From NCBI RefSeq assembly GCF_016907365.1, contig NZ_JAFBBV010000001.1, forward strand, positions 992,001 through 1,056,000: 64,000 nt of DNA, in the 5' to 3' direction. This DNA comes from Oerskovia paurometabola. GTDB lineage: Bacteria; Actinomycetota; Actinomycetes; Actinomycetales; Cellulomonadaceae. Positions 33,498 through 40,088 of this stretch are shown here, one piece after another. The translations under genes and the position numbers were made by a program. Under the pieces are notes generated by a model. That model was not told the origin of the DNA. It did no database searches and was given only the letters and a program-made list of their open reading frames with translations. Positions within the stretch are counted from its first letter, which is position 1; each line of letters opens with the position of its first letter.

Positions 33498-34367
33498 TCA
33501 GCCCGCGAACGGCAGGACCGGCAGGCCCCGCACACCCGGGACGACCCGGAAGACCGACCCCGCGTCGAGCTCGGGCTCGAACGGCTCGCGAATCATGAGC
33601 CGTGACGTCGTGATGAACAGCTCGTCGAGGTCCTCGCCGCCAAAGGTGCACGCCGTGACGTGCGAGGCGGGCAGCTCGACCACCGCGGTCAGCGTCCCGT
33701 CCGGCGCGTAGCGGCGCACCGCGCTGCCGCCCCACAGCGCGACCCACACGCCCCCCTCGGCATCGACCGTGAGCCCGTCGGGCAGACCGTCCTCGCGCGG
33801 GATCTCGACCAGGACCCGCCGGTTCGCGAGGGGCTCGGGCGCTCCCGCGTCGTAGTCGAACACGTCGACCCGGCACGTGAGCGTGTCCACGTAGTAGGCC
33901 AGCGTCCCGTCGGGCGAGAAACCCAGCCCGTTCGAGCACGTGACGCCCGACAGCACGAGGCGCGCGGCGCCGTCGGGCTCGACGCGGAACAGGGCGCCCG
34001 CGCCCGACCGGTCGTCGAACGGCATGGACCCCGCGTAGAACGCGCCGTCCGGGGTGGTCGAACCGTCGTTGAGGCGGACCGTCGGGTCGCTCCACAGCTC
34101 GGGGAAGGGACGCACGGGGGAGTCGGGCGCCTCGTCGTCCACGAGCGCGAGCCCCCGCTCCAGCCCGACGACGTAGCCCCCCTGGGAGCGCGGGCGCACC
34201 ATGGTCGCGTAGTCGCCCACGTGGCGGCGGGTCACCGTGGCGTCGGGCTGGAGGGTCAGGAGGTCGCCGGCCATCATGTCGACGAACCGCAGCCCGCCCC
34301 AGGTCGGGGACCACACGGGCCCCTCGCCGTGGTGGGCGACTGGACCGGTGATGTTCTCGGCGCGCAT
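33498..34367 (-). CDS. SMP-30/gluconolactonase-family lactonase
   Basis: 289 residues from the ATG at 34367. Six-bladed beta-propeller of the SMP-30 family: metal-binding Glu in HHGEGPVW near residue 15, Asn in VRLNDGSTTPDG (about 100), Asn in CSNGLGFSPDG (about 145), and Asp in LPDGLTVDAEGG (about 195), all conserved. It hydrolyses sugar lactones with a divalent metal. In the pathway it would open the lactone formed by a sugar dehydrogenase (one of the SDR or Gfo/Idh enzymes) before dehydration. No regulon operator is visible in its upstream region, which it shares with trpS. Confidence 0.87.
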   Translation of the reverse strand: MRAENITGPVAHHGEGPVWSPTWGGLRFVDMMAGDLLTLQPDATVTRRHVGDYATMVRPRSQGGYVVGLERGLALVDDEAPDSPVRPFPELWSDPTVRLNDGSTTPDGAFYAGSMPFDDRSGAGALFRVEPDGAARLVLSGVTCSNGLGFSPDGTLAYYVDTLTCRVDVFDYDAGAPEPLANRRVLVEIPREDGLPDGLTVDAEGGVWVALWGGSAVRRYAPDGTLTAVVELPASHVTACTFGGEDLDELFITTSRLMIREPFEPELDAGSVFRVVPGVRGLPVLPFAG

Positions 34368-34419
34368 GAGGCTATTGTCCCGGACCGCCGCGGGTGACAC
34401 GAGGCGTACCCTTGGCCCC

Positions 34420-34461
34420 ATGACAATGCGCAACTGGTGGTGGCTGCCCTCGCAGCCGTGA
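34420..34461 (+). CDS. Trp-rich leader peptide of trpS
   Basis: 13 codons, MTMRNWWWLPSQP, with three consecutive TGG codons at 34435-34443 and a TGA stop. It lies 93 bp upstream of the trpS start on the same strand. Consecutive Trp codons in a short leader ORF are the hallmark of ribosome-mediated attenuation: a ribosome stalls there when charged tRNA-Trp is scarce. No strong Shine-Dalgarno precedes it, so the mRNA may be leaderless or nearly so at this ORF. Confidence 0.75.
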   Translation: MTMRNWWWLPSQP

Positions 34462-34475
34462 CCAGTCGTGTCCCC

Positions 34476-34550
34476 GAGCTGCCCTGCGTGCAGCCCGGGT
34501 CGGCCCTCCGTCGCCTCCGGCGAACGAGGGCGGCTCCTGACTCCAGGAGC
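34476..34550 (+). promoter_or_regulatory. trpS attenuator: SD-masking hairpin and alternative pairing
   Basis: GCTCCTG (34533-34539) pairs perfectly with CAGGAGC (34544-34550, loop ACTC), hiding the trpS Shine-Dalgarno AGGAG (34545-34549). GAGCTGCCCT (34476-34485) can instead pair with AGGGCGGCTC (34527-34536; nine Watson-Crick pairs and one G-U), which breaks the masking stem. Stalling at the leader Trp codons would favour the open form. The lack of a T tract argues for translational control. A third pairing (34503-34515 with 34518-34530) could oppose the alternative one. Confidence 0.6.
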
Positions 34551-34553
34551 ACC

Positions 34554-35696
34554 ATGACCCTCACCAGCGCGGCCACCGCCGCAGCCACCACCCCTGCCCA
34601 GGGGACCCGCCCGCCCGAGGCGCGCTCCGCCGTCGGGACCCTCGACGCGGCCCGCGCCCGCAGCCGCGCGGTCGAAGCACGGATCGCCGCCGACCCTGCG
34701 GAGTTCCGCGTCCTCACGGGCGAGCGACCGACGGGCGCCCTGCACATCGGGCACTACTTCGGGACCGTCGCCAACCGCGTGCGGCTCCAGCAGGCAGGCG
34801 TCGAGGTCTTCCTGATCCTCGCCGACTACCAGGTCATCACCGACCGCGACGAAGCCGGAGACCTGCGCGGGACCGTGCGCGAGATCCTGCTCGACTACCT
34901 GGCGGCCGGGATCGACCCGGACCGGACCACGGTCTTCACGCACAGCGCCGTCCCCGCGCTCAACCAGCTCCTGCTGCCGTTCCTGAGCCTCGTGAGCGTC
35001 GCCGAGCTCGACCGCAACCCGACCGTCAAGGCCGAGACCGCAGCGACCGGCGGGCGGGCCATGAGCGGACTCATGCTCACCTACCCCGTGCACCAGGCCG
35101 CCGACATCCTGTTCTGCCACGCCAACCTCGTGCCCGTCGGGCAGGACCAGCTGCCGCACCTCGAGACGACGCGCACCGTCGCGCGCCGCTTCAACCAGCG
35201 GTACGCCGCCGCGAACCCGTACTTCCCGGAGCCCGACGCGCTGCTCGCGCCCTCGCCCACGATCCTCGGGACCGACGGGACCAAGATGAGCAAGAGCCGC
35301 GGGAACACGCTGCCGCTCGGGGCGAGCGAGGACGAGACGGCCCGGTGGGTCAAGCGGGCCAAGACCGACGCCGAGCGGGCCATCACCTACGAGCCCGAGA
35401 CCCGACCCGAGGTCGCGAACCTCCTGACGATCGCGTCGCTGTGCACCGGACGGGCCCCGGAGGAGATCGCCGACGAGGTCGGCAGCGCGGGGGCGGGAAG
35501 GCTCAAGGCCCTCGTGACCGAGGCTCTCGTCGAGCACCTGCGGCCGATACGGGCTCGGCGGGCGGCGCTCGCGGCGGGCGACGGTCCCGAGGTGCTCGAC
35601 ATCCTCGCGCGCGGCAACGCACGGGCCAACGAGATCGCGGACCGCACGCTCGACGACGTGCGCGAGCTGATGGGCATGGTCTACCGCCGAGGGTGA
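34554..35696 (+). CDS. trpS: tryptophanyl-tRNA synthetase
   Basis: 380 residues from the ATG at 34554 (AGGAG 4 nt upstream, inside the hairpin described above). Class I aminoacyl-tRNA synthetase: the HIGH motif is [10 protein letters not shown] near residue 65 and KMSKS is [12 protein letters not shown] near residue 245. The N-terminal 45 residues are an Ala/Thr-rich extension. [10 protein letters not shown] and the NPYF segment are typical of bacterial TrpRS. It charges tRNA-Trp with tryptophan in the cytoplasm. The leader peptide shows that it is regulated by charging level, so this may be an inducible or the sole copy. Confidence 0.95.
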
Positions 35697-35719
35697 CGTG
35701 GCTGACCGGGTGACGCGAA

Positions 35720-35760
35720 CGCCCGCCGAGGGTGACATCAGATGTCACCCTCGGCGGGCG
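35720..35760. repeat. 20-bp perfect inverted repeat at the trpS / cheA-remnant junction
   Basis: Arms 35720-35739 and 35741-35760 are separated by a single base. The 14-bp core CCGCCGAGGGTGAC also forms the 3' end of trpS (35684-35697), so there are two direct copies and one inverted copy, plus a partial inverted copy at 35766-35775. It can act as the trpS terminator, and it marks the point where cheA similarity begins. Confidence 0.8.
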
Positions 35761-35984
35761 CGTCGGTCACCCTCGACATCGTCGAGGACGACGCCCGGCT
35801 GCACAGCGACATCGACGACAACGGGCTGGTCGGTTCGACCGTCCTCGACCAGCGCGTCACCGAGCTGCTCGACGTCCGCAGCGCCGTCCGCGCCGCGGAC
35901 GCAGGCTTCTTCGACGACGACCATCCTGACGGCCTCGCCGACCGGGCGGCCTTCGACGACGACCTCCTGGCAGGTGTGCGATGA
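35742..35984 (+). pseudogene. cheA: C-terminal remnant of cheA
   Basis: 80 codons. After eight residues encoded by the hairpin arm, the frame reads [12 protein letters not shown] ... [26 protein letters not shown], which matches the segment after the CheW-like (P5) domain at the C-terminus of actinobacterial CheA (GS-V-D-x-x-TELLDV). The ATPase, dimerisation and Hpt domains are missing, and the frame upstream belongs to trpS. The remnant still ends in the ATGA overlap with cheW, as expected of the native cheA-cheW junction. The ATG at 35742 is within a hairpin and has no ribosome-binding site. Probably a truncated gene; a complete cheA would have to be elsewhere. Confidence 0.65.
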
Positions 35985-36391
35985 GCACGAGACTCGTGAC
36001 CTTCACGCTGGGCGACCGGCTCTGCGGGATCCCCGTCGACAGGGTCCAGGAGGTCCTGCCGAGCCGCCCACGCACGCGGGTGCCCCTCGCGCCGGACGAC
36101 GTCGCGGGCCTCGTCAACCTTCGCGGCCAGGTCGTGCTCACGGTCGACCTCCGACGACGGCTCGGCATGCCCGCGCACGACGGCGAGCAGATGATGGCCG
36201 TCGTCTTCGTGGGCGACGAGACCGTGAGCCTGCTCGTCGACCGGATCGGCGACGTGCTCGTGGTCGACGAGGAACAGTTCGAGCTGCCTCCCCAGACCCT
36301 GTCCGAGGCGCTGCGCGCCGTGATCCTCGGCACCTACAAGCTCTCCGACCAGCTCCTGCTCGCGCTCGACGTCGACGCCGTGGCGTCGTGA
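35981..36391 (+). CDS. cheW: chemotaxis coupling protein CheW
   Basis: 136 residues from the ATG at 35981. The CheW beta-barrel is clear: [42 protein letters not shown] (the VxNLRG motif) and [14 protein letters not shown]. It links chemoreceptors to the kinase CheA. It is coupled to the cheA remnant upstream and precedes the three receptor genes. A short hairpin (GACTCG-CGAGTC at 36395-36409) follows the stop in the 110-bp gap to the first receptor. Confidence 0.93.
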
Positions 36392-36501
36392 GCCGACTCG
36401 TGACGAGTCCCGCGAGCCAGCCCGCCAGCCGGCCCGCGACCAGGCCCGCAGGTCGAGCCAGCACCCCCCTCCCCGTTCATCACACCGCCCAGGAGTCCCC
36501 C

Positions 36502-38115
36502 ATGTCCTCGTCCCTGACGCCCCCGACCGTTCGGGCACGCCGCTCCCGATTCGGCGACCTCTCGGTCCGGACCCGGATCATCGTCGCGCTCGGCGTCCTC
36601 GTCCTCGTGCTCGTCGCGACCGTCGCCGTCGCCCTGCAGGGCCTGCGCTCGACCCTCGACGACACGGCGACCGTCGCGGACGTGGGCAACACCGCGCTGC
36701 GCCTCAATGCTCAGATCGACCACGGTGCCCAGGAGGCCTGGCGGCTGACGTACCAGTACGACCTCGTCGAGGGGTCGGCCCGGTCCGCCGTCGTCGCGCA
36801 GATGGACGCGACGGACGCGGACCTCGAGGCGGACATCGCCGCGTACGACACGATGCTGGGGACGATGACCGAGCCGAACTGGGAGGCGTTCAAGACGGCG
36901 TGGGCCGACTGGGTCGCCTACCGCGACTCGACCCTCATGCCGGCGGTCGAGGACAAGGCCGTGACGCCGGAGATCCAGTCGCGCAACGACGCTCTCATCG
37001 CCGCCCACGTCGCCGCTCTGTCGCGCGCCGGTGACGCGGCGAACGAGTACGCCGCGTCGATCGCCGACGAGGCCACGGAGCACGCGAACCGCACCGTCGC
37101 CATGATGGTCGTCCTCGGGCTGGTCGGCCTGGTGATCGCCCTGGTCGTCGCGCTCGTGGTCGCGAACGGGATCCGCCGGTCGGCCGAGAAGGTGCGACGC
37201 TCCCTGGTCGCGCTCTCCGAGGGCGACCTGACGGTCCGCGCCGACGTGGACAGCCGGGACGAGATCGGTCAGATGGCCGTGGCTCTCACGACCGCGCAGA
37301 CGAGCCTGCGGGCCATCATCTCCACGGTCGCCGGCACGGCCCAGGAGGTGGCTGGTGCAGCCGACCGCCTGTCCTACGCGGGCGCCCAGTTCTCGGCGTC
37401 GTCGGAGGAGACGGCGGCGCAGTCGGGGGTGGTGGCGGCTGCTGCGGAGCAGGTGTCGCAGAACGTGCGGACGGTGGCTGCGGGGGCGGAGCAGATGGGG
37501 GCCTCTATTCGGGAGATCGCGCAGAACTCGAACGAGGCGGCGAAGGTGGCTAATCGTGCGACGGATCGTGCGGCGTCGACGAATGTGACGGTGCAGAAGC
37601 TGGGGACGAGCTCGCAGGAGATCGGTGATGTGGTGAAGGTGATCACGTCGATCGCTGAGCAGACGAACTTGTTGGCGTTGAACGCGACGATCGAGGCGGC
37701 TCGTGCGGGGGAGGCGGGCAAGGGGTTCGCGGTGGTGGCTTCTGAGGTCAAGGAGCTGGCGCAGGAGACGGCGAAGGCGACGGAGGACATCGCTCGTCGG
37801 GTGGAGGCGATCCAGGACGACACGTCGAGTGCGGTGGGGGCGATCGGTGAGATCGCGGACATCATCGGGCGGATCAACGACTATCAGCTGACGATCGCCT
37901 CGGCGGTGGAGGAGCAGACCGCGACGACGACGGAGATGTCTCGTGGGGTGCAGGAGTCCGCGACGGGGGCCTCGGAGATCGCGGGCAACATCACAGGCAT
38001 CGCGACCGCCGCGTCGTCGACCGCGGAAGCGATCCAGCAGATGAACGACTCGATCGCCGAGCTCGCCCGGATGAGTGCCGACCTGCAGTCGGACGCCGCG
38101 AAGTTCGTCTACTGA
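36502..38115 (+). CDS. methyl-accepting chemotaxis protein 1
   Basis: 537 residues from the ATG at 36502 (AGGAG 6 nt upstream). Membrane helix 1 at about 27-47, a periplasmic-type four-helix sensor domain to about 195 (rich in Ala and Asp), helix 2 at about 197-217 ([18 protein letters not shown]), HAMP domain at about 218-270 ([20 protein letters not shown]), then a signalling helical hairpin with the conserved tip [29 protein letters not shown] sequence. Residues about 296-504 are encoded by a DNA block nearly identical to the two following genes. The C-terminus (SDAAKFVY) differs from them, so conversion stopped before it. No C-terminal pentapeptide for CheR is visible. Confidence 0.95.
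37387..38013 (+). repeat. MCP signalling cassette, copy A (627 bp)
   Basis: By eye this block differs from the corresponding parts of copies B and C (39200-39826 in B) at two positions only (near 37503 and 37995). Its codon use (GCT, CGT, TCT, TTG) is unlike the flanking NNC-rich sequence. Confidence 0.85.
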
Positions 38116-38164
38116 CCCGCTCCCCACGACCCGCCGCAGTCAGCTCCAGAGGAAGGACCAGCCC

Positions 38165-39928
38165 GTGAACCGGCAGAGCGAAGCACCCGACGACCTCGCA
38201 CCCACGCTCGAGCACGCGCCCGAGGTGTTCGTCGAGCCCTACCCCGACGGCCTGTCCGACCTCGGCGCGACGTCGGGCGAGGTGTCCGACGTGGACCCCG
38301 CGCAGGGAGCAGGAGAGCGGACGGCACACGCCGCAGGGGGCAGCGTCCTGCGCTCGGTCCGCACCAGGATCCTGGGCCTCGTCGCGGTCCTCGTGGTCGC
38401 GATGATCGTGCTGGGCGCGGTGGCCGTCTCGACCACGGTCTCGCTCCGGGAGCGCACGGAGACGATCGCGACGATCCAGAGCACCCTCAACGCGCGCGTC
38501 ATGGCTCTTCAGAGCTCCGTGTGGTCGTACCGGCTCGCGACCGGAGGCCTGGGCGACTACATGGGGGAGCCCGAGGAGGCAGGCCCGCAGTTCGTCGCGA
38601 TCGACGGGGCCCACGGCGCCGTCACGGCCGAGATGCGGGCGTTCGAGGACATCTACGCGGGCATCGGCGAGCCGGTGCCGGACCAGTACGGATCGTTCGC
38701 GCTGTCCGTGAACGAGTACATCTCGATCGTCGAGGAGCGCAAGCTGCCGGCCTTCGAGGCCGGGGACCGCGCGGCGTTCCGGTCCGCGGACACGGACCTC
38801 GACAACGTCGGTCAGCAGATGGGCGGCGCGCTGGACCGCCTCCAGTCGTACATCGACGACATCCTCGCGGGAGAGACGGAAGCGGCCGCGAGCGAGGCGT
38901 CGACGGCGATCGTCACGCTCGTCGTGATCATCGCGGTCGGCGCGCTCGGAGGGTTGGCGTTCGGCTGGATCACCTCGGGACGGATCAAGAGAGCGATCGT
39001 CGGGGTGCAGCGCACGGTCGAGGCGATCGCGGACGGCGACCTGACCCACGAGCCCGACGTCCGCGGCCGGGACGAGCTGGGGGACATGGCCCGCGCCCTG
39101 TCCTCGGCCCAGGCGTCGCTGCGCGCCACGCTCGCTGGTGTCCTCGAGTCGTCGGTGACGATCGCGTCGAGTGCGGAGTCGTTGGCGGGGGTGTCGTCGC
39201 AGTTCTCGGCGTCGTCGGAGGAGACGGCGGCGCAGTCGGGGGTGGTGGCGGCTGCTGCGGAGCAGGTGTCGCAGAACGTGCGGACGGTGGCTGCGGGGGC
39301 GGAGCAGATGGGGGCTTCTATTCGGGAGATCGCGCAGAACTCGAACGAGGCGGCGAAGGTGGCTAATCGTGCGACGGATCGTGCGGCGTCGACGAATGTG
39401 ACGGTGCAGAAGCTGGGGACGAGCTCGCAGGAGATCGGTGATGTGGTGAAGGTGATCACGTCGATCGCTGAGCAGACGAACTTGTTGGCGTTGAACGCGA
39501 CGATCGAGGCGGCTCGTGCGGGGGAGGCGGGCAAGGGGTTCGCGGTGGTGGCTTCTGAGGTCAAGGAGCTGGCGCAGGAGACGGCGAAGGCGACGGAGGA
39601 CATCGCTCGTCGGGTGGAGGCGATCCAGGACGACACGTCGAGTGCGGTGGGGGCGATCGGTGAGATCGCGGACATCATCGGGCGGATCAACGACTATCAG
39701 CTGACGATCGCCTCGGCGGTGGAGGAGCAGACCGCGACGACGACGGAGATGTCTCGTGGGGTGCAGGAGTCCGCGACGGGGGCCTCGGAGATCGCGGGCA
39801 ACATCACGGGCATCGCGACCGCCGCGCAGGAGAGCGCGGCGACCATGCAGCGGATGAGCGTCGCGGTCGACGAGCTGGCCCAGGTCTCGGTCGAGCTGCG
39901 CACCCGCGTCGCCCAGTTCCGGATCTGA
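38165..39928 (+). CDS. methyl-accepting chemotaxis protein 2
   Basis: 587 residues from the GTG at 38165 (GGAAGGA 7 nt upstream). A 60-residue hydrophilic cytoplasmic N-terminus (rich in Asp, Glu, Ala) precedes membrane helix 1 ([20 protein letters not shown], about 73-92). The sensor domain spans to about 250, helix 2 is at about 255-277 ([23 protein letters not shown]), and a HAMP domain follows ([24 protein letters not shown]). The signalling domain is the shared cassette, and the last 35 residues ([19 protein letters not shown] ...) are identical with receptor 3. The sensor domain is unlike those of receptors 1 and 3, so the ligand should differ. Confidence 0.94.
39144..39928 (+). repeat. 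MCP signalling cassette, copy B (785 bp)
   Basis: Identical by eye to 40906-41690 over the full 785 bp, including the stop codon. The homology begins abruptly at TCGAGTCGTCGGTGACG within the linker after HAMP. Confidence 0.88.
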
Positions 39929-40088
39929 CGCGGCCCCCAGCACCTCGCACCTCAGCACGACACGTACCACCCGCATCACCGGAACGGATCAGCACGACCT
40001 CGGGGCTCTCGCCCCCAGGCAACCGACTCGGCCGCCACGCGCGGCCGCCAGCAGGGGACACGGGTCCCCCCAGATCGAGAGGCGAGCG

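Follow-up and report, generated by a model that had tools for sequence, protein, structure and literature searches.

A tryptophan leader peptide and a covarying RNA pairing beside the Shine-Dalgarno sequence suggest attenuation of an auxiliary trpS gene in Oerskovia paurometabola

In this study, a stretch of 64,000 nucleotides from the Oerskovia paurometabola genome (contig NZ_JAFBBV010000001.1, positions 992,001 to 1,056,000), referred to as the window, was analysed around a trpS gene located at 34554–35696 on the plus strand. The gene encodes a protein of 380 amino acids, in which the HIGH (HIGHYFG) and KMSKS motifs were read by eye, and the TIGR00233 trpS profile scored 236 bits against a cut-off of 177, indicating an intact tryptophanyl-tRNA synthetase (TrpRS). 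The 4.33-Mb genome holds a second trpS (C1:3023301-3024293), 35% identical to the window copy; the window gene is named type II and the other copy type I. The type-II protein shares 94% identity with its counterpart in Oerskovia enterophila DSM 43852 and 92–96% with those of five further Oerskovia genomes. In the family Cellulomonadaceae, type I was found in 216 of 221 genomes (E ≤ 1e-70) and type II in 81 of 221 (E ≤ 1e-80), and 6 of the 7 Oerskovia genomes examined had type II, the exception being G003. The window gene is the auxiliary, type-II member of the pair, and the genome has a housekeeping trpS as well. The earlier note had described it as a synthetase under control of its own tRNA charging; the conserved Trp leader described below agrees with this, but the gene is not simply "the synthetase" of the organism. 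Partial type-II matches in genomes G124, G137, G204 and G206 were left out of the locus set, and locus L212 ends at a contig edge. Type-II trpS genes of 60–64% identity were also seen in metagenome-assembled genomes labelled Acidobacteria, Myxococcales and Thermoleophilia (L144, L155 and L158), which may reflect transfer or wrong binning.

Upstream of trpS lies a leader ORF of 13 codons plus stop (MTMRNWWWLPSQP; 34420–34461, plus strand), reading ATG ACA ATG CGC AAC TGG TGG TGG CTG CCC TCG CAG CCG TGA. Its three tandem Trp codons (34435–34443), read from the sequence and conserved in relatives, are the presumed stall site. The ORF was present as the earlier note had it, upstream of the trpS ATG at 34554, with a gap of 92 nt instead of the 93 bp given there. 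A −10-like box, TACCCT (34407–34412, plus strand), is situated 7 nt before the leader ATG. Comparison with relatives showed a TANNNT box ending 6–8 nt 5′ of a leader start codon in 89 of 91 unique leaders, compared with 11 of 1820 control positions; any in-frame leader start and spacers of 4–10 nt were allowed in this test, the controls being single upstream positions with the same spacers. From this placement, the leader mRNA is probably leaderless, with a transcript start on the leader ATG or right beside it. Since a sigma-70 consensus scan of 34300–35800 returned no −35 element and no full promoter, it is the TANNNT box that carries this reading. The box 7 nt before the leader start also makes it unlikely that trpS transcription begins downstream of 34461, an outcome which the earlier note had held to speak against a leader. 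Leaderless transcription of the trpS leader is reported for Streptomyces lividans in the accessible text of PMC8079986.

The leaders of the five other Oerskovia genomes with type-II trpS read MTTRNWWW(L/P)PSQP. In other genera of the family, leaders such as MITRAWWWLPQQP, MFTQSWWWLPPQP and MTHGLNWWRLHSQP precede type-II trpS, and beyond Cellulomonadaceae forms such as MKSLVLVWWLPS (a separate family, f36) and MNRTACLGWWPS (Actinomadura madurae, L160) were found, so that Trp pairs or WxW occur in leaders across Cellulomonadaceae and other Actinobacteria. Under a uniform rule (TANNNT 6–8 nt before a 7–25-codon ORF containing Trp), a leader was present at 74 of 78 loci within Cellulomonadaceae and absent at L022, L062, L082 and L089. 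Where the genome had two trpS genes, a leader preceded 107 of the 115 type-II copies, compared with 3 of 14 sole type-II copies (Fisher p 8.5e-9, with relatedness ignored and species not independent). The rule counts loci, so that G032 with its two type-II copies enters twice, and the second match in G048 is weak; four tandem-Trp leaders with a different −10 box (L181, L187, L192 and L202) were skipped by the rule and the count of 107/115 was kept. Sole type-II copies lacking a Trp leader were spread over several families, and the exceptions with a leader despite a sole trpS were G179 and G181 (Sanguibacter) and G473. Judged from its link to two-trpS genomes, the leader element appears to be mostly tied to backup synthetases, where the ORF probably senses tryptophan shortage.

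The two Sanguibacter genomes (loci L032 and L033) had no housekeeping trpS match and seem to depend solely on the leader-controlled type-II copy. In G032, both type-II copies (L010 and L053) have a Trp leader. A trp-operon-like leader elsewhere in the O. paurometabola genome was also considered and dropped, as its five PF00425 loci, which presumably include trpE, had no leader-like tandem-Trp ORF (7–30 aa) within 1.5 kb before the domain match; a single chance ORF, MWWAILGSNQ, was seen before L218 in this upstream scan.

Folding of 34400–34560, suggested in the earlier note, gave a structure far more stable than those of shuffled sequences (z −4.28, 0/200). The leader consists of four consecutive hairpins, at 34428–34471, 34473–34499, 34503–34531 and 34533–34550, which beat 200, 198, 200 and 199 of 200 shuffles, respectively. 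The first, 1:2 (34428–34471, plus strand; −27.2 kcal/mol, 0/200 shuffles, z −5.0), pairs segment 1, formed by the Trp codons and GGCTGC, with the GCAGCC of segment 2. Segment 2 (GCAGCCGTGAC; 34452–34462, plus strand) is in turn complementary to segment 3, giving an antiterminator-like 2:3 duplex of −13.0 kcal/mol in L001. Of 91 leaders, 17 have the GCAGCC-like sequence spanning or following the stop codon and 53 have it inside the ORF, the pattern being unmatched in 21; where it falls outside the reading frame, its conservation must be at the RNA level. The second hairpin, 3:4 (34473–34499, plus strand; CCCGAGCTGC...GCAGCCCGGG), is attenuator-like without a U-tract, with 2 of 200 shuffles as good. 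Its stability was −15.7 kcal/mol in the window, and in the comparison of leaders, where L001 had −16.7 kcal/mol, the Oerskovia 3:4 was among the weakest; relatives retain 3:4 with different outer stems, and in some of them a U-rich tail follows it.

Hairpins 1:2 and 3:4, with 2:3 as the alternative, have the plan of a classical trp attenuator, which was absent from the earlier account of this leader. As complementarity, the mutually exclusive 1:2, 2:3 and 3:4 were found with ribosome-sized spacing. A ribosome on the leader stop codon would extend to about 34471, and 3:4 begins at 34473. The third hairpin (34503–34531, plus strand; GCCCTC...GAGGGC; −18.3 kcal/mol, 0/200 shuffles) is extra to this plan; its 3′ arm occupies half of segment 5, described below, and so competes with the pairing of that segment to segment 3. 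In some leaders of genus g7, a GCCCG...CGGGC counterpart was noticed by eye. All six Oerskovia genomes with type-II trpS keep the WWW leader, 3:4, a Shine-Dalgarno (SD) hairpin and the 3:5 pairing, apart from minor differences, for example a mismatch in L007. A T-box or another known RNA family was rejected, as no T-box architecture was seen and an Rfam scan of the window gave no family at the gathering level; within the leader, the two hits obtained (E 0.65 and 4.6) were no better than chance.

The SD sequence of trpS, AGGAG (34545–34549, plus strand, read from the sequence), lies in the 3′ arm of the fourth hairpin, 5:6 (34533–34550, plus strand; −12.7 kcal/mol, 1/200 shuffles), in which 34533–34539 and 34544–34550 form 7 perfect base pairs, exactly as had been claimed. 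GCTC just 5′ of the SD was found in 58 of 88 leader-bearing trpS genes; among genes with a comparable SD, it was seen in 16 of 229 that flank such loci and in 4 of 46 from the window. The SD half of 5:6 hardly varies among leaders; support for 5:6 comes from GCTC enrichment and stability. In family f36, a longer SD hairpin was seen by eye, with its left arm overlapping segment 5.

Segment 5 (AGGGCGGCTC; 34527–34536, plus strand) can pair either through its GCTC with the SD side or with segment 3. The part of segment 3 concerned (34476–34485, plus strand) comprises GAGCTGC and nucleotides of the 3:4 loop, its end falling in the loop region. The 10-bp pairing pointed out in the earlier note exists, with 9 Watson-Crick pairs and one U-G. 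The comparison of this 3:5 pairing started from 91 unique leaders of loci L001–L172, 16 of which had no segment 3 or SD by pattern, giving 75 leaders (72 unique). In the 72 unique leaders, the mean complementarity score was 26.1 with their own partners, 21.9 with swapped partners (sd 0.39, maximum 23.0 of 2000) and 15.6 with shuffled zones, the last being single-base shuffles. In 70 of 72, the best partner ended 7–14 nt upstream of the SD, compared with 23% for shuffles, and 3:5 beat at least 95% of a leader's own shuffles in 56 of 72 but fell short in 16. Leaders of the family with weak or missing 3:5 included L009, L032, L033, L036, L086–L088 and L090.

Covariation was assessed in the 57 loci (45 unique) with GCTC at the SD, out of 91, so that 34 were left out; the anchor fixes the first four pairs only. 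The covariation score of these 45 rows was 0.188, compared with 0.122 (sd 0.012) after shuffling (0/500). Standard pairs made up 82.1% of cells (shuffled 78.1, 0/500), and 39 cells had changed on both sides (shuffled 23.8, 0/500); two of the five covariation measures were less extreme, with 50/500 and 19/500 shuffles. Registers slid by 1–3 gave at most 48.0% standard pairs and a covariation of no more than 0.118. At position 10, the 45 rows had AU in 9, UA in 8, GC in 7, GU in 6, CG in 1 and no pair in 14. Some of the rows left out by the anchor have a strong 3:5 (L083, L038 and L010), for example GGGCTGCATGG with CCATGCAGCCC in L083 and GCTGCGCACCG with CGGTGCGCGGC in L038, and some a weak one (L032 and L033). 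In family f36 (18 loci, 8 unique rows), own partners were likewise better than swapped ones, with 60 of 5000 permutations as good. An automated survey, weak overall, gave a 3:5 of 17 interrupted pairs in L158 and one of 10 pairs in L207; its hairpin finder, run on 111 leaders, had a median z of −0.9, with 13 leaders at 0/100 shuffles and 32 at 5 or fewer, and often picked the wrong hairpin. In L158, a Trp leader and a 3:5 of 13/14 pairs were also seen by eye.

As judged from these alignments, the 3:5 pairing beside the SD is conserved and covarying across genera, and it may switch translation on. The TGG run is kept across genera as well, so that the refuting outcome named in the earlier note, in which related genomes have neither feature, does not hold. 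The idea that 3:5 is a by-product of 3:4 was ruled out, since the covarying positions 8–11 are loop or junction in 3:4 and 3:4 cannot cause their covariation. In terms of stability, the 3:5 duplex was stronger than 2:3 in 71 of 73 leaders, and 3:4 was stronger than 3:5 in 51 of 73.

Whether transcription or translation is the output was addressed by examining the sequence after 3:4. As stated in the earlier note, a U tract is lacking: none follows any hairpin of the window leader, and a scan of 34300–35800 for intrinsic terminators (3:4 with a U-tract) found no terminator-like site. The six Oerskovia leaders have no more than 2 U in the 8 nt after 3:4. Measurements of U-tails and duplexes were obtained for 73 of the 75 leaders, L017 and L069 having no match for segment 4, and 22 of these 73 had at least 4 U within 8 nt after 3:4. 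Ten g7 leaders (L047, L049–L052, L054, L055, L057, L058 and L060) had 5–7 U there and also carried an 11-nt 3:5 (10 pairs in L049 and L058) together with the anti-SD; U-rich tails after 3:4 were also found at Actinomadura loci. The leader family therefore mixes terminator-tailed and tail-less members, with 3:5 and anti-SD in both. The 22 relatives with U-rich tails suggest that transcription termination probably belongs to the leader family. In Oerskovia, no output other than SD release is evident from the sequence. Because actinobacterial terminators can lack U-runs, termination may also occur in Oerskovia.

One explanation is that attenuation is purely transcriptional, 3:4 terminating in Oerskovia without a U-tract or with Rho, and that the SD hairpin and 3:5 are secondary. 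The presence of 3:4 in the measured leaders and the U-rich tails in 22 of 73 agree with it, and transcriptional attenuation has reportedly been shown by experiment for S. coelicolor trpRS1. It is consistent, too, with PMC1262725, the accessible text of which predicts an attenuator before S. avermitilis trpS2 and calls the Streptomyces trpS elements classical attenuators, and with that of PMC8079986, where the trpS leader peptide of S. lividans is listed and treated as an attenuator despite having no uridine-rich stretch after it. However, the window leader has no terminator-like site and the Oerskovia 3:4 is among the weakest, and termination alone leaves unexplained why the 3:4 loop covaries with a stretch immediately upstream of the SD. 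We consider this explanation unlikely, while giving it some weight. Both outputs could also act together in Oerskovia, some transcripts ending weakly at 3:4 and the read-through being gated at the SD by 5:6 versus 3:5. The g7 leaders, combining a U-rich tail, 3:5 and anti-SD, indicate that such features coexist in relatives, but the low U count after 3:4 in all six Oerskovia leaders makes this combination quite improbable for the present genus. The earlier proposal that translation start rather than transcription is controlled can be kept only in part: the Trp leader, anti-SD and 3:5 are conserved, but the classical 1:2/2:3/3:4 plan is present and relatives have U-rich tails.

The explanation that we favour, and regard as moderately probable, is a ribosome-mediated attenuator in which scarcity of charged tRNA-Trp turns on the auxiliary type-II TrpRS, with a conserved SD-release arm added to it. 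Transcription would begin at or beside the leader ATG and the 13-codon leader would be translated immediately. With ample Trp-tRNA, the ribosome would get to the stop codon and mask segments 1 and 2, and 3:4 would close; segment 5 would then be free to pair with the SD as 5:6, turning translation off. In those relatives that have a U-tract, 3:4 would terminate transcription as well. If the ribosome stalled on the Trp codons, segment 2 would be exposed and capture segment 3 as 2:3, blocking 3:4. The nucleotides of the would-be 3:4 loop, being open, could then serve as a foothold from which segment 5 displaces segment 2 from segment 3, and the resulting 3:5 would leave the SD free. Such a strand exchange from 2:3 to 3:5, possible after a stall and not once 3:4 has closed, is suggested by the covarying nucleotides of segment 3, which are shut in closed 3:4 and open when 2:3 is formed.

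Folding calculations did not reproduce this switch in Oerskovia. At equilibrium, P(3:5) was 0.00 and the SD was fully paired in the Oerskovia leader with the ribosome at any of four positions (the stop codon and each Trp codon), and P(2:3) was no more than 0.01. A ribosome on the stop codon gave a P(3:4) of only 0.03, the RNA pairing with the trpS start instead, and a stalled ribosome gave about 0.9, which is opposite to the proposed model. A co-transcriptional simulation, crude and heuristic, was run on 12 leaders hand-picked from the 75. A ribosome placed on the stop codon allowed 3:4 to form in 12/12 (only 3 pairs in L083); placing it on the first Trp codon abolished 3:4 in 5/12, yielded a 3:5 of at least 10 pairs in 2/12 (L055 and L067) and gave an unpaired SD in 1/12 (L043). 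The simulated Oerskovia leaders L001 and L003 showed no change on stalling, the SD remaining paired. As neither equilibrium nor crude kinetic folding gives an ON state, the switch itself is something that we infer for Oerskovia. Release of the SD by the 10-bp pairing, as put forward in the earlier note, accordingly has the covariation of the pairing on its side and these calculations against it.

The same calculations, in giving no working ON state, would suit a leader with no regulatory role in Oerskovia, its hairpins and ORF being left over from an attenuator of an ancestor or arising merely from high G+C content. This seems hard to reconcile with the retention of the WWW leader, 3:4, SD hairpin and 3:5 in all six Oerskovia genomes with type-II trpS and with the high stability of 34400–34560 relative to shuffles, and we regard it as highly improbable. 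Extending the favoured attenuator model beyond Oerskovia, actinobacterial auxiliary trpS genes might share an attenuator of six segments in which the terminator loop is also the foothold for a segment beside the SD and one stalled ribosome, through exchange of 2:3 for 3:5, sets both termination and translation, Oerskovia being among the lineages that have lost the terminator tail and use SD release alone. This extension is tentative, and we hold it to be somewhat doubtful.

Control of this kind was compared with known systems. The attenuator of the auxiliary trpS of Streptomyces (trpRS1/trpS2) resembles that of Oerskovia in having a Trp-codon leader ORF, a leaderless start and hairpins before trpS, whereas no SD-sequestering arm or 3:5 is mentioned for Streptomyces in the accessible text of PMC1262725 and PMC8079986. 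The Trp leaders of Streptomyces sp. HmicA12 (L162) and Kitasatospora (L135) were read directly in our comparison; their TrpRS proteins are 60% and 68% identical, respectively, to the window protein over the best segment, and they are presumed orthologues of the published trpRS1. The trp operon attenuator (trpL) of E. coli, Corynebacterium and Streptomyces likewise has tandem Trp codons and the 1:2/2:3/3:4 plan, whereas the Oerskovia element lacks a U-tract, controls a synthetase and has two extra segments (5 and 6) at the SD. In the anti-TRAP leader rtpLP of Bacillus subtilis, which likewise combines three Trp codons in tandem with control of an SD further downstream, the ribosome itself blocks the nearby SD; in Oerskovia the stop codon is 92 nt from the trpS start, so that RNA pairing must carry the signal. 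Translational attenuation of the erm type shares SD release by stalling on a leader peptide, the stall being drug-induced in erm and presumably due to codon-specific starvation in Oerskovia. Actinobacterial ileS T-boxes, for which translational control by an SD sequestor and anti-sequestor is predicted in the accessible text of PMC1262725, are also found at a synthetase gene with an SD sequestor, but their sensor is a tRNA-binding T-box, for which the Rfam scan gave no match here.

A limited search of the open literature turned up no paper describing SD release in a trpS leader, and the combination of a Trp leader, 3:4, a covarying 3:5 and an anti-SD in more than one family was not found in print in an incomplete library. 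Attenuation of auxiliary trpS is a known kind of control, to which the leaders described here add a conserved, putative SD-release arm. The earlier note called the mode uncommon; Trp-leader attenuation of trpS as such is in print for Streptomyces (PMC1262725 and PMC8079986, accessible text). If the model is true, the leaders would represent an attenuator moving from termination to translation control with the same leader and core hairpins, and related genera would hold living intermediates. It would also provide a rule for strand exchange, the terminator loop being the foothold. The auxiliary Streptomyces TrpRS is resistant to indolmycin according to the accessible text of PMC9437257 and PMC6804068, in which the title of a cited reference mentions induced expression. 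As the Streptomyces backup enzyme can withstand a compound that inhibits the main TrpRS (PMC9437257, accessible text), the model suggests that backup synthetases may be silenced by two locks answering to one signal.

Two further observations were made next to the gene. At and after the trpS stop codon (35687–35776), CCGAGGGTGAC occurs four times, twice on each strand, one of the copies having a mismatch. The sequence recurs around trpS in other Oerskovia, four times in L003 and seven times in L007 and L094, as if a short repeat family sat in these Oerskovia intergenic regions; its count in the whole window, 9 with at most 1 mismatch, is unremarkable (5 of 100 shuffles reach it), and it is the clustering that is striking. 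Further downstream (35698–39979), two adjacent genes resembling chemotaxis receptors were noticed by eye, and the long identical stretches shared by their antisense reading frames point to a perhaps recent tandem duplication.
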